Source: Geodermatophilus sabuli (lineage in GTDB: Bacteria > Actinomycetota > Actinomycetes > Mycobacteriales > Geodermatophilaceae). Taken from it: a DNA stretch of 64,000 bases. The notes beneath the pieces are model-generated. The model worked only from the letters and a program-made list of their open reading frames with translations, was not told the origin of the DNA and searched no databases. The translations under genes were made by a program, and so were the position numbers. The DNA is taken from contig NZ_JAAGWF010000019.1 in assembly GCF_010686765.1 (NCBI RefSeq), positions 1 through 64,000 of the forward strand, written 5' to 3'. Shown one piece after another: positions 26,338-29,952 of the stretch (its first letter is position 1; the number at the start of each line of letters is the position of its first letter).

Positions 26338-26359
26338 CCGGATGGGCGAGGGTGGGCGG

Positions 26360-28069
26360 GTGACTCCCGAGCAACCCCCGTGGTGGACCCGCGCCGTCGT
26401 CTACCAGATCTACCCGCGCTCGTTCATGGACTCCGACGGCGACGGGATCGGCGACCTCGGTGGTGTCCTGCAGCGCCTGGACCACCTGTCCGACCTGGGC
26501 GTCGACGTCCTCTGGCTCTCCCCGGTCTACCCCTCGCCGCAGGCCGACAACGGCTACGACATCAGCGACTACCAGGACGTCGACCCGCTGTTCGGCAGCC
26601 TGGCCCAGCTCGACGAGCTGATCGCCGAGCTGCACGGGCGCGGCATGAAGCTGGTCATGGACCTGGTGGTCAACCACACCAGCGACCAGCACCCGTGGTT
26701 CCGGGAGAGCCGCTCGTCGCCGGACTCGCCCAAGCGCGACTGGTACTGGTGGCGGCCACCCCGGGCCGGCCTGCCGGCGGGCGCCCCGGGAGCGGAGCCG
26801 ACCAACTGGCACTCGTTCTTCTCCGGCCCCACGTGGACGCTCGACGAGGCCGGCGGCGAGTACTTCCTGCACCTGTTCGACCGCAGGCAGCCGGACCTGA
26901 ACTGGGAGAACCCGGAGGTCCGGCACGCGGTGTACGCGATGATGCGGTGGTGGCTCGACCGCGGGGTCGACGGGTTCCGCATGGACGTCATCAACCTGAT
27001 CAGCAAGGACGTCGGCCCGGACGGCGAGCTGCGCGACGGCCCACCGCTGCCGGGGCTGCCCTACGGCGACGCCACGACCTCGGTCGTGTGCGGGCCCCGG
27101 AGCCACGAGTTCCTCCAGGAGATGCACCGCGAGGTGTTCGACGGTCGCCGGGAGTCGCTGCTGCTGGTCGGCGAGATGCCCGGGGTGACGGTCGAGGAGG
27201 CGCGGCTGTTCACCGACCCGGCGCGGGCCGAGGTGGACATGGTGTTCCAGTTCGAGCACGTCGGCCTGGACTTCACGGGCTCCAAGTTCTCCCCCCGTCC
27301 GCTGCGGCTGACCGACCTCAAGGCCTCGTTCGGGCGCTGGCAGGCCGGGCTGGCCGACGTCGGCTGGAACTCCCTCTACTGGGACAACCACGACCAGCCG
27401 CGGGCGGTGTCCCGGTTCGGCGACGACTCGCCCCGGTACCGCCGCGACTCGGCGACGTGCCTGGCCACGCTGCTGCACCTGCACCGGGGGACGCCCTACG
27501 TCTACCAGGGGGAGGAGCTCGGGATGGCCAACACCCGGTTCGACGGCCTGGACGACTTCCGGGACGTCGAGTCGCTCAACCACCACGCGCAGGCGGTCGC
27601 CCACGGGGAGGACCCGGACACCGTGCTCGCGGCGATGCGGCGGATGAGCCGGGACAACGCGCGGACACCGGTGCAGTGGGACGCCGGCCCGACCGCCGGC
27701 TTCACCACCGGGACGCCGTGGATCGCGGTGAACCCGGACGCCGCCGAGTGGAACGCCGCTGCCCAGCGGGACGACCCGCACTCGGTGCTCGCCCACCACC
27801 GGCGGCTGGTCGCGCTGCGGCACGCCGACCCGGTGGTCGCGCTCGGGGACTTCACCATGCTGCTCCCCCACCACGAGTCGGTGTACGCGTTCACCCGCAG
27901 CCTGGACGGGTCGACGCTGCTCGTGGTCTGCAACGTCAGCGCGCACGAGTACCGGCTCGGTGAGCTGCTCCCCGAGATGGGCGGCGGCGAACTGGTGCTG
28001 GGCAACCTGGCCGTCGAGGACCCCGCCGTCCTGCGGCCGTGGGAAGCCCGCGTCCTGCGCGTGGGCTGA
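26360..28069 (+). CDS. GH13 alpha-glucosidase / oligo-1,6-glucosidase
   Basis: 569 residues from the GTG at 26360, which has GAGGG 6 nt upstream; an ATG 18 nt earlier is also possible. GH13 motifs in order: WLSPVYPSPQADNGYDISDY, MDLVVNHTSDQHPWF, GFRMDVINLI with the nucleophile Asp, LLLVGEMPGV with the acid Glu, and WDNHDQPRAVSRFGDD with the transition-state Asp. The C-terminal beta domain ends at about 569. It hydrolyses alpha-glucosyl oligosaccharides in the cytoplasm. No sugar transporter is adjacent. Confidence 0.9.
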   Translation: MTPEQPPWWTRAVVYQIYPRSFMDSDGDGIGDLGGVLQRLDHLSDLGVDVLWLSPVYPSPQADNGYDISDYQDVDPLFGSLAQLDELIAELHGRGMKLVMDLVVNHTSDQHPWFRESRSSPDSPKRDWYWWRPPRAGLPAGAPGAEPTNWHSFFSGPTWTLDEAGGEYFLHLFDRRQPDLNWENPEVRHAVYAMMRWWLDRGVDGFRMDVINLISKDVGPDGELRDGPPLPGLPYGDATTSVVCGPRSHEFLQEMHREVFDGRRESLLLVGEMPGVTVEEARLFTDPARAEVDMVFQFEHVGLDFTGSKFSPRPLRLTDLKASFGRWQAGLADVGWNSLYWDNHDQPRAVSRFGDDSPRYRRDSATCLATLLHLHRGTPYVYQGEELGMANTRFDGLDDFRDVESLNHHAQAVAHGEDPDTVLAAMRRMSRDNARTPVQWDAGPTAGFTTGTPWIAVNPDAAEWNAAAQRDDPHSVLAHHRRLVALRHADPVVALGDFTMLLPHHESVYAFTRSLDGSTLLVVCNVSAHEYRLGELLPEMGGGELVLGNLAVEDPAVLRPWEARVLRVG

Positions 28070-28174
28070 CCGGGAGCCGGCGCACCTCGCGCACGCCGCC
28101 GGGACGACACGCGCCTCGTGACGGTCGACCCTCGACCTGGTCGAGACGGCACGGTCGTCCCCGTGGAGGAACAC

Positions 28175-29218
28175 GTGCGCGGGATCGGTCAGATGGCCCG
28201 GGAGTCCGGGCTGACGGTGAGCGCCCTGCGGTTCTACGACGGTGCCGGCGTCCTGGTGCCGGCCTCCGTGGACCCGCGGAGCAGCTACCGCCGGTACAGC
28301 GACGACCAGGTGCCGGTCGCCCGCCTCATCGCCCGCTTGCGGCGGGTCGGGATGCCGCTCGCCGACATCTGCCGGGTCCTCGAGCACCGCCGGGACCGCT
28401 CGGTGGTGGACGAGGTCCTCGGGGCGCACCTGACCCGCCTCGAGGACGGTCTGGCCGACGCGCGCCGGGAGCTCCGCCACGCCCGAGCCCTGCTCGACCA
28501 GGAGCAGCCCGTGACGACCGTCGTCCGCACCACCGCCACCGACCTCGCCGCCGCCCTGCGCGCCGTGCGCTTCGCCGTCGGCAGCGATCCGGCACTGCCC
28601 ATGCTCACCGGCGTGCTGCTCGACGTCGACGACTCGTCGGCACGGGTCGTGGCCAGCGACCGCTACCGCCTCGCCGTCTCCGAACTGGCCGGCGCGGCGG
28701 TGGCCGGACCCGCGGTCGGCGCCCTCGTCCCGGTCGCGCTGGTCGACGAGGTGCTCGGCACGCTCGGGGACGACGGTCCCGTGACGATCCGGGTGGAGGG
28801 CGCACGGATCGCCGTCGAGGCCCCGGACGCGATGCTGAGCGGTCGGCTCGTGGACCACGACTTCCCCGACTACCGGCGACTGCTGCGCCCCTCGGCCGCC
28901 CACCGCGTGGACGTCGACGTCGAGCGGTTCCGCGCCGAGCTGACCGCCGCGCCCACCCGCCAGGTGCCGGGGCCGCCCGGCGAGCCGGCCCAGACGGTGT
29001 CGGTCCTGACGCTCGATGCGCGCGGCGAGCTCGGCTCCACCGGCGCGGACGGCGTCGTCGCGGTGGGCGTGGCCCGGGAGTTCCTGCTCGAGGCGCTCGA
29101 CGCCGGGACCGCCGGCCAGCTCGTCCTGGAGCTCGACGGCCCGATCGCGCCGCTCGCGCTCCGGGACCCCTCCCGGCCCGGGGACGTCAGCATGCTGATG
29201 CCGATCCGCCTGCCGTAG
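28175..29218 (+). CDS. MerR-type regulator fused to a two-domain DNA sliding clamp (DnaN-like)
   Basis: 347 residues from the GTG at 28175, with GGAGGA 4 nt upstream; a GTG 57 nt earlier is possible. Residues 1-70 are a MerR HTH: MARESGLTVSALRFYDGAGV, then YRRYSDDQVPVARLIARLRR. A coiled segment (75-110) follows. Residues 113-347 match the second and third domains of the bacterial beta clamp: VRFAVGSDPALPMLTGVLLD, VASDRYRLAVSEL, the linker DHDFPDYRRLLRP (228-239), and the C-terminus VSMLMPIRLP, like the DnaN end. The first clamp domain is absent. Similar fusions are machine-annotated in actinobacteria, but I know of no studied function. Confidence 0.8.
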   Translation: MRGIGQMARESGLTVSALRFYDGAGVLVPASVDPRSSYRRYSDDQVPVARLIARLRRVGMPLADICRVLEHRRDRSVVDEVLGAHLTRLEDGLADARRELRHARALLDQEQPVTTVVRTTATDLAAALRAVRFAVGSDPALPMLTGVLLDVDDSSARVVASDRYRLAVSELAGAAVAGPAVGALVPVALVDEVLGTLGDDGPVTIRVEGARIAVEAPDAMLSGRLVDHDFPDYRRLLRPSAAHRVDVDVERFRAELTAAPTRQVPGPPGEPAQTVSVLTLDARGELGSTGADGVVAVGVAREFLLEALDAGTAGQLVLELDGPIAPLALRDPSRPGDVSMLMPIRLP

Positions 29219-29271
29219 CCCTCCGCCGTCGTCACCGGCGAGGGAGCAGCCGCACCGGCCATGATGGGCCG

Positions 29272-29952
29272 GTGGGCATCCCCGGCATCGACGTCCCCGA
29301 CCACCGCGGCCGCACCGGGCTGGACCAGGTGGGCCGCGACCTCACCGGCAACCCCGACGTCGTCGTCAGGGACGTGGAGCTGCTCGCCAGCGGCTGGCAC
29401 GTGCTCCGCCGCACCAGCCTGGAGCGGCGGCGCAGCGACGGCCGGTGGGTCACCGAGCAGCGGGAGACCTACGACCGCGGTAACGGCGCGACGCTGCTCC
29501 CCTACGACCTCGAGCGGCGGACGGTCCTGCTCACCCGGCAGTTCCGTTACCCCGTCTACGTCAACGGCCATCCCGACGGGCTGCTGCTGGAGGCCGCGGC
29601 CGGGCTGCTCGACGACGACGGCGCGGAGGTCGCCATCCGGCGGGAGGCCGAGGAGGAACTCGGCGTCTCGCTCGGCGCGGTGCAGCACGTGTTCGACGTG
29701 TTCATGAGCCCGGGCTCGGTGACCGAACGGCTGCACTTCTTCGCCGCCCCCTACGTCCCGGCCGACCGGACGAGCGCCGGCGGCGGGCTCGAGGAGGAGG
29801 GCGAGGACATCGAGGTCGTCGAACTGGCCTTCGACGACGCGCTCGACATGGTCGACGACGGCCGGATCGCCGACGCGAAGACGATCATGCTGCTCCAGTG
29901 GGCCGCCCTGCGCGGCCCCTTCCGCCCCCGAGCGGACCCGTCGCAGCGCTGA
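29272..29952 (+). CDS. Nudix hydrolase, NudK (GDP-mannose pyrophosphatase)-like
   Basis: 226 residues, GTG start. The Nudix box region AAAGLLDDDGAEVAIRREAE continues EELGV; the REAEEELGV core is intact and the spacing before it is that of the NudK subgroup. The segment LLTRQFRYPVYVNG before it and FDVFMSPGSVTERLHFFAA after it also match NudK-like ADP/GDP-sugar pyrophosphatases. It is convergent with the acetoacetyl-CoA synthetase gene, with stops 6 bp apart. Confidence 0.85.
   Translation: MGIPGIDVPDHRGRTGLDQVGRDLTGNPDVVVRDVELLASGWHVLRRTSLERRRSDGRWVTEQRETYDRGNGATLLPYDLERRTVLLTRQFRYPVYVNGHPDGLLLEAAAGLLDDDGAEVAIRREAEEELGVSLGAVQHVFDVFMSPGSVTERLHFFAAPYVPADRTSAGGGLEEEGEDIEVVELAFDDALDMVDDGRIADAKTIMLLQWAALRGPFRPRADPSQR

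Follow-up and report, generated by a model that had tools for sequence, protein, structure and literature searches.

A MerR-type regulator joined to two domains of the replication clamp in actinobacteria, a candidate sensor of clamp-binding compounds

The fusion gene and its domains

Here we describe a gene of Geodermatophilus sabuli in which a MerR-type DNA-binding domain is joined to a part of the DNA polymerase beta clamp (DnaN). It lies in a stretch of 64,000 nucleotides, hereafter the window, between a gene for a GH13-type enzyme (Pfam Alpha-amylase) at 26342-28069 and one for a NUDIX-like hydrolase, assigned by eye, at about 29270-29952; neither of these neighbours is recognisable among the recurrent neighbour groups of 80 relative loci. 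The features of the gene and of its promoter are listed below, with residues counted throughout from the GTG at 28175 as residue 1, and with conservation given over 113 genes, i.e., that of the window, the best 80 loci of one scan and 32 further chosen loci.

28125..28130, plus strand: -35 element TCGACC (TTGACC in most relatives); the site at 28125-28146 has 2 mismatches to TTGACCCTCGACCNGGTCGAGG
28131..28145, plus strand: operator palindrome CTCGACC-T-GGTCGAG in the 19-bp spacer, within 3 mismatches in 112/113 genes
28150..28155, plus strand: -10 element CACGGT, 19 nt after the -35; N-A-N-N-N-T at such spacing in 113/113
28163..29218, plus strand: MerR-clamp fusion regulator gene, probable start GTG 28163 (351 aa); shorter reading from GTG 28175
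28175..28384, plus strand: MerR winged helix-turn-helix (HTH), residues 1-70 (Pfam MerR_1 4-70; model helices 4-11, 15-23, 45-57 and 62-70)
28397..28498, plus strand: long helix, residues 75-108 (AlphaFold2 model), presumed coiled coil for MerR dimerisation
28500..28504, plus strand: internal ribosome-binding-like sequence AGGAG
28511..28513, plus strand: internal GTG (Val113) at the clamp boundary, which as a start would give a 235-aa clamp-only product
28514..28888, plus strand: beta-clamp domain 2, about residues 114-238 (Pfam DNA_pol3_beta_2 123-232; profile search)
28655..28672, plus strand: pocket motif 1, SDRYRL, residues 161-166 (E. coli T172-L177)
28862..28882, plus strand: pocket motif 2, FPDYRRL, residues 230-236 (E. 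coli F241-V247)
28889..29215, plus strand: beta-clamp domain 3, shortened, about residues 239-347 (profile match; Pfam beta_3 in 35/61 members)
29192..29212, plus strand: pocket motif 3, MLMPIRL, residues 340-346 (E. coli V360-L366; M342 = Met362, R345 = Arg365)

An earlier sequence-only reading of this DNA had placed here a protein of 347 residues, encoded at 28175-29218 on the plus strand. The open reading frame of 347 codons is indeed there, but its first codon is probably not the true start. An in-frame start codon is found 37-39 nt after the -35 element in 112/113 genes, at 38 in the case of GTG 28163, and 48 of these 112 have no start codon at the position equivalent to 28175, so that the GTG at 28163, four codons upstream, is the likelier start. 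Since this codon stands seven nt behind the -10 element, the message of the fusion gene is probably leaderless.

The same reading had taken the protein for a MerR HTH joined to domains 2 and 3 of the clamp, with domain 1 missing and an FPDYRRLL linker, and this architecture is borne out by Pfam, by a profile of 61 aligned members and by an AlphaFold2 model. In the window protein, MerR_1 is matched at 4-70 (E 5e-13, above the family cut-off) and DNA_pol3_beta_2 at 123-232 (E 4e-16); both are matched in 61/61 aligned members, which were collected with HTH patterns. The window protein alone has no Pfam match to domain 3, and 35 of the 61 members match DNA_pol3_beta_3. The profile of the 61 members matched solved beta clamps over positions 115-350, among them 7rzm (E 1e-40) over chain residues 131-374, i.e., domains 2 and 3 only, and FPDYRRLL is present at residues 230-237. 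The single-chain model (mean pLDDT 92.9, pTM 0.77) presents the MerR helices and the long helix 75-108, followed by strands and helices that resemble those of two clamp domains. Dimerisation through such a long coiled-coil helix is common knowledge for the MerR family.

The ordinary DnaN of the host is encoded on another contig (C9) and is 27% identical to the fusion over the shared part; identity of the clamp part to E. coli DnaN is 21%. The TIGR00663 equivalog gives the window protein 74.3 bits and its cut-off of 137.65 is not reached. By every family feature tested at the sequence or model level, the fusion is a MerR-family regulator, and by the features tested it is not a functional clamp, each chain having only two of the three clamp domains. 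Furthermore, the TipAS domain (PF07739) is absent from the Pfam results of the window protein and of the 61 members, and by its domain content, as read from the sequence, the fusion is not of the TipA class.

Pocket, ring-forming parts and a candidate internal start

The cleft between domains 2 and 3 of the clamp is described as a general site for its partners, and also as the place where a griselimycin binds, mycobacterial resistance to this compound having come with amplified segments that contain dnaN (PMC8765428). In co-crystals with E. coli DnaN, griselimycin and mycoplanecin are described as filling the pocket, with Arg365 hydrogen-bonded and Met362 acting as a gate (PMC10817943). Over the 113 fusions, Met362 and Pro363 are invariant, Arg176 is kept in 112/113 and Arg365 in 103/113; the window protein departs from this norm with Ser at T172 and with Ala at N320, which is Asn in 97/113. 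The residues compared below are those which we take to form the pocket, the ring interface and the DNA-facing surface. Mean information is 3.69 bits at the 22 pocket positions and 2.62 bits at 210 other columns of the clamp part (Mann-Whitney p 1e-7, a descriptive value, as the genomes are related). Means for the ring-interface and DNA-facing positions are 2.55 and 2.50 bits, no better than this background, although single positions are still kept, e.g., R269 in 112/113.

Moreover, domain 3 is shortened. The column equivalent to E. coli residue 268 is a gap in 113/113 sequences, five residues of the first helix of the domain are missing in the four fusions compared in an alignment, and in the model only a two-residue bridge (286-287) lies roughly where the full edge strand would be. 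The conservation pattern thus suggests that the partner and drug pocket between domains 2 and 3 has been kept, and that the conserved inter-subunit interface of domain 3 has not. Nevertheless, this pocket also binds many cell proteins, and its conservation is therefore no proof of drug sensing.

At the boundary between the coiled coil and the clamp part, a start codon in the linker, preceded by a sequence resembling a ribosome site, is found in 97/113 genes (ATG 78, GTG 18, TTG 1). Elsewhere in the fusion genes such a site precedes 205 of 2140 other in-frame start codons, under a nearly identical rule by which the first count at the boundary was 87/103, the 10/113 sequences without an anchor having been left out; 97/113 covers all 113. 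In the main boundary column the codons are 76 ATG, 17 GTG and 1 TTG of 113. Its Val codons are GTG in 17 cases and GTC in 1, whereas overall GTC exceeds GTG (2123 to 1931), which argues for selection on a start codon and not on the amino acid. On the other side, the rule fails in 16/113 genes, a Met at the junction is mostly absent in the stretches compared from distant relatives, and the GAG-GAG codons could mimic a ribosome site by chance.

Distribution, promoter and operator-linked genes

The fusion is widespread and patchy. It was found in 6 of 41 close genomes at E 1e-30 (3/25 in the genus of the window, its own genome included), in 99 of 397 genomes drawn from the order at E 1e-25, in 10 of 396 from the phylum at E 1e-22, two of them matching the clamp part only, and in 75 of 160 Micromonosporaceae at E 1e-22. 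The best 80 loci of one scan include Blastococcus, Micromonospora, Streptomyces, Kitasatospora, Pseudonocardia, Actinoplanes and other genera. Of these, Blastococcus belongs to the Geodermatophilaceae. Five plasmid records of Streptomyces and Embleya (0.9-3.1 Mb) carry the fusion over at least 80% of its length. Where the matching plasmid records label the gene, it is as a 'MerR family transcriptional regulator', which agrees with the earlier remark that the protein was known from automated annotation only; in the open-licence full-text literature, in a search that covered part of the matching papers, no description of a MerR-clamp fusion was found.

A phage origin was discarded, the seven phage records that match doing so over at most 26% of the query each and at the HTH end only. 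A conserved neighbour was likewise looked for and rejected: the commonest groups recur in just 22 and 20 of 80 loci and, their example loci being from Micromonospora, they were taken as lineage synteny. A second DnaN in one genome (G790; L297:9274-10566), 65% identical to the query DnaN and with helicase- and ssb-like genes nearby, was considered as a self-resistance clamp and dismissed; it lies in a stretch that by eye resembles a prophage, as those neighbours were also named by eye, and its best upstream operator match has 7 mismatches.

Upstream of the fusion gene, the family shares a promoter of the design TTGACC-CTCGACC-N-GGTCGAG-N4-(C/G)AnnnT. A spacer of 19-20 bp holding a palindrome is described as a known design of MerR promoters (PMC9909328). 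The one gene of the 113 that exceeds 3 mismatches is within 4, and the promoter also precedes 23/24 further loci, i.e., those of the family scans outside the 113-gene set; a broken relative (L011) is without it, its best match having 9 mismatches. The -10 hexamer was not used for picking the sites, and yet its A2 and T6 keep the exact spacing of 19 nt from the -35 in every one of the 113 genes. Twenty more loci, of 28-50% identity and mostly from distant relatives, show the same design in 19/20 cases, mostly with TTCGA-like half-sites, and one locus (L181) is without such a promoter. This MerR-type design before its own gene makes it very probable that the fusion regulates itself.

The operator is rare. 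With no more than one mismatch allowed, it occurs 150 times in the 160 Micromonosporaceae, and the reversed pattern 4 times. Operator and gene occur together in 66 of these genomes, the gene alone in 9, the site alone in 6 and neither in 79 (Fisher p 2.5e-27, not corrected for kinship). Perfect sites occur in 48/75 fusion-bearing genomes and in 0/85 fusion-free ones, fusion-free meaning no match at E 1e-22 in this family or at E 1e-30 among the close genomes; at the stringency of one mismatch or less, the self site was found in 59/75. Among 24 genomes without a fusion match, mostly of the window's genus, 9 have an operator site, and none of the 11 sites from that scan adjoins any of the MFS, TPR, dnaN or YunG target types described below. 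One of the nine is perfect: in this congener (G013; L104/L298, C5, about 1008257, minus strand) the intact operator is followed by a fusion-gene stump of about 25 codons, a sequence trace which suggests that the gene was recently lost.

Beyond the self sites, 51 second sites were chosen for inspection out of 83 in fusion-bearing genomes, with weight given to perfect matches and to Micromonospora. Four gene types account for 47/51: 18 sites face MFS transporters, 14 TPR-like proteins, 13 true dnaN genes (Micromonospora) and 2 YunG proteins, and 2 of the 4 other sites are reverse readings of a palindrome already counted. The MFS targets fall into two groups, one of the 18 being a fragment (L114) and another a match at only 30% identity (L132); for the one tested, the nearest models were H+ antiporter, Tet(V) and Mef, all below cut-off. 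The TPR assignment of the small target proteins comes from weak Pfam matches, also below cut-off. In 13/18 distant relatives the fusion is immediately followed by a TPR gene, and in one more this gene lies upstream, an independent sign that both belong together. The YunG-family protein (PF24585, E 2e-42 for the L119 copy, to which that of L116 is 72% identical) stands behind the operator in two Micromonospora genomes. In many MFS and TPR genes linked to the operator a start likewise stands at an offset of about 38, and the sequence arrangement is probably that of a regulon of leaderless messages.

In the genome of the window there are two good sites, the self site and one before a TPR gene. 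Another three sites, at 3 mismatches each, have no gene of the target types in front of them, and one of these sites keeps the -10. The best copy in this genome (C100:78700; L054:8701-8745) is that before the TPR-like protein, of 161 aa, behind a gene that by eye is hemerythrin-type-like. In turn, no second sites were seen in Streptomycetaceae, where 30/30 sites read (of 61) are self sites, nor in the distant relatives, where 16/16 are.

The link to dnaN was seen only in Micromonospora. In 18/20 of its genomes the operator is found within 3 mismatches (within one in 13), at a constant position between dnaA and dnaN; the distance to dnaN is about 562-568 nt, or 628 nt in one genome whose match begins further on. 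Of the two others, one carries a degenerate copy (5 mismatches) at that position and the other lacks the site. Shuffled dnaN-upstream controls, which preserve single-base composition only (30 per locus), reached 4 mismatches as their lowest value. No dnaN site within 4 mismatches is present in 8 fusion-bearing Micromonosporaceae of other genera, in 8 fusion-free relatives or in 6 genomes of the window's family, and the best match upstream of the window genome's own dnaN has 7 mismatches; control of dnaN outside Micromonospora was rejected for the genomes examined. At L098:3347-3910, and at the same place in other Micromonospora, the MerR-type promoter stands just behind dnaA and points toward dnaN. 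DnaA-box-like sites are present in this gap, 7 in one Micromonospora genome and 5 in another, and the promoter would therefore transcribe through a probable origin (oriC); its activity could affect origin firing. The sequence-only reading had supposed a tie between transcription and replication, and in this genus the operator before dnaN gives it substance.

What the fusion may sense

On this evidence we lean, by a little, towards an autoregulated MerR-type activator that would sense clamp-binding compounds of the griselimycin and mycoplanecin kind with a piece of the drug's own target. A MerR dimer would sit on CTCGACC-N-GGTCGAG within the 19-bp spacer, and the sensing half would consist of clamp domains 2 and 3, with the pocket retained and the ring-forming parts not. 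A griselimycin- or mycoplanecin-like peptide filling the pocket would cause the DNA to be distorted in the manner of other MerR activators, so that the promoter fires. Depending on the lineage, the output would be more regulator, an MFS pump, a small TPR-like partner and sometimes the YunG protein, and in Micromonospora also more DnaN, i.e., an over-production of the target. From the second start codon would come a clamp-only fragment able to mop up the drug in the manner of TipAS. At the level of sequence, this reading is supported by the domain architecture, the conserved pocket, the geometry of the promoter, the links between operator and genes, and the internal start, while the ligand class, the activation, the drug sponge and the function of the pump are parts of it that we infer. 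To the wider proposition, that a widespread actinobacterial factor detects clamp-binding natural products with a copied pocket and raises dnaN, an efflux pump and a clamp-fragment sponge, we give somewhat less than even credence.

The pocket could instead read the clamp-binding motifs of the cell itself, those of polymerase, repair or damage-induced partners, and adjust the supply of clamps; in Micromonospora this would be done by a promoter whose transcript also runs across the probable origin between dnaA and dnaN. Such a replisome homeostasis would fit the general role of the pocket as a partner site (PMC8765428), as well as the operator before dnaN in 18/20 Micromonospora, in a gap with DnaA-box-like sites. 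We hold it to be unlikely, although deserving serious attention, for the dnaN site is missing from the 8 fusion-bearing relatives of other genera and from the 6 genomes of the window's family, and the fusion is patchy even in the window's genus and is present as full-length copies on large Streptomyces and Embleya plasmids. A patchy, plasmid-borne gene with a dnaN site in one genus has the habit of an accessory resistance gene and not that of a core controller. Indeed, it is the pump, the boost of the target and the patchy, sometimes plasmid-borne distribution that lead us to prefer the sensing of an antibiotic over the sensing of clamp partners. Another option is that the clamp fold was put to a new use, as the scaffold that holds an unrelated small molecule, the conservation of the pocket reflecting folding or ancestry. 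GyrI-like and TipAS effectors are described as examples of the varied ligand domains recruited by MerR proteins (PMC7762955), and the window protein itself varies at T172 (Ser) and N320 (Ala); nevertheless, with more conservation in the pocket columns than elsewhere in these domains, and with the clamp gene itself in the regulon of one genus, we regard this option as quite improbable.

A ring had also been proposed: as a dimer or trimer, the fusion would form a clamp ring, or mimic one, and be loaded at or near promoters. The homology to clamp domains 2 and 3 is true and R269 is among the few interface or DNA-facing positions still kept, but the chain has no domain 1, its domain 3 is shortened, the interface and DNA-facing positions are conserved at background level and an ordinary MerR promoter geometry suffices; ring, clamp loading and trimer are not supported, and we find the idea scarcely credible. 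Phage proteins that target replication clamps exist, and the fusion might be an alarm that senses those which seize the clamp. The targets read, however, are transporters, dnaN, a TPR protein and YunG, and PADLOC gives only an HTH-level match (mad1, E 2e-6, residues 4-46), on which the reading as a defence system was rejected; we hold a phage alarm to be very improbable.

The known system closest in logic to the antibiotic sensor that we favour is TipA, a MerR HTH with a coiled coil and a C-terminal drug-binding effector, autoregulated, whose gene in Streptomyces lividans is described as having two start codons, one for a long regulator and one for a short form that traps the drug (PMC7762955). 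The fusion has a conserved candidate internal start at the same kind of boundary. Unlike TipA, its effector is a beta-clamp fragment (DNA_pol3_beta_2/3) and not TipAS (PF07739), its ligand is a presumed one, and the genes linked to its operator include dnaN in Micromonospora. With BmrR and the GyrI-like MerR regulators it shares the DNA-binding part and the long-spacer promoter, and the best solved matches of its HTH are BmrR entries, whereas the effector fold of BmrR differs from the clamp fragment. To our knowledge, the BmrR effector is no copy of the target of its ligand. From DnaN, with which it has in common domains 2 and 3 and the partner and drug pocket, it differs by the lack of domain 1, the shortened domain 3, the low identity to the host protein and the HTH in front. 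Finally, the gene clusters of griselimycin and mycoplanecin are described as carrying DnaN genes, griR and mypR (PMC10817943). The fusion would be, if the sensor reading is true, another extra clamp-derived actinobacterial protein tied to clamp-binding antibiotics; unlike those DnaN genes of antibiotic clusters, it is a partial clamp on a regulator, and no neighbour is common to more than 22/80 of its loci.

DnaN is a validated target of anti-mycobacterial peptides. Were the fusion to sense clamp partners instead, dnaN and transcription through the probable origin would be under a regulator that reports directly, at the level of transcription, how far clamps are occupied, and this would be no less new. 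If the fusion is the antibiotic sensor that we favour, it would offer a ready whole-cell reporter for finding new clamp-binding antibiotics, and its operator a genome-wide handle for finding pumps and producers. Natural inhibitors of the clamp would then have to be much more common than the known griselimycins and mycoplanecins, and the circuit of sensor and response would show how soil actinobacteria meet them, with a boost of the target, a pump and a sponge as the routes of resistance.
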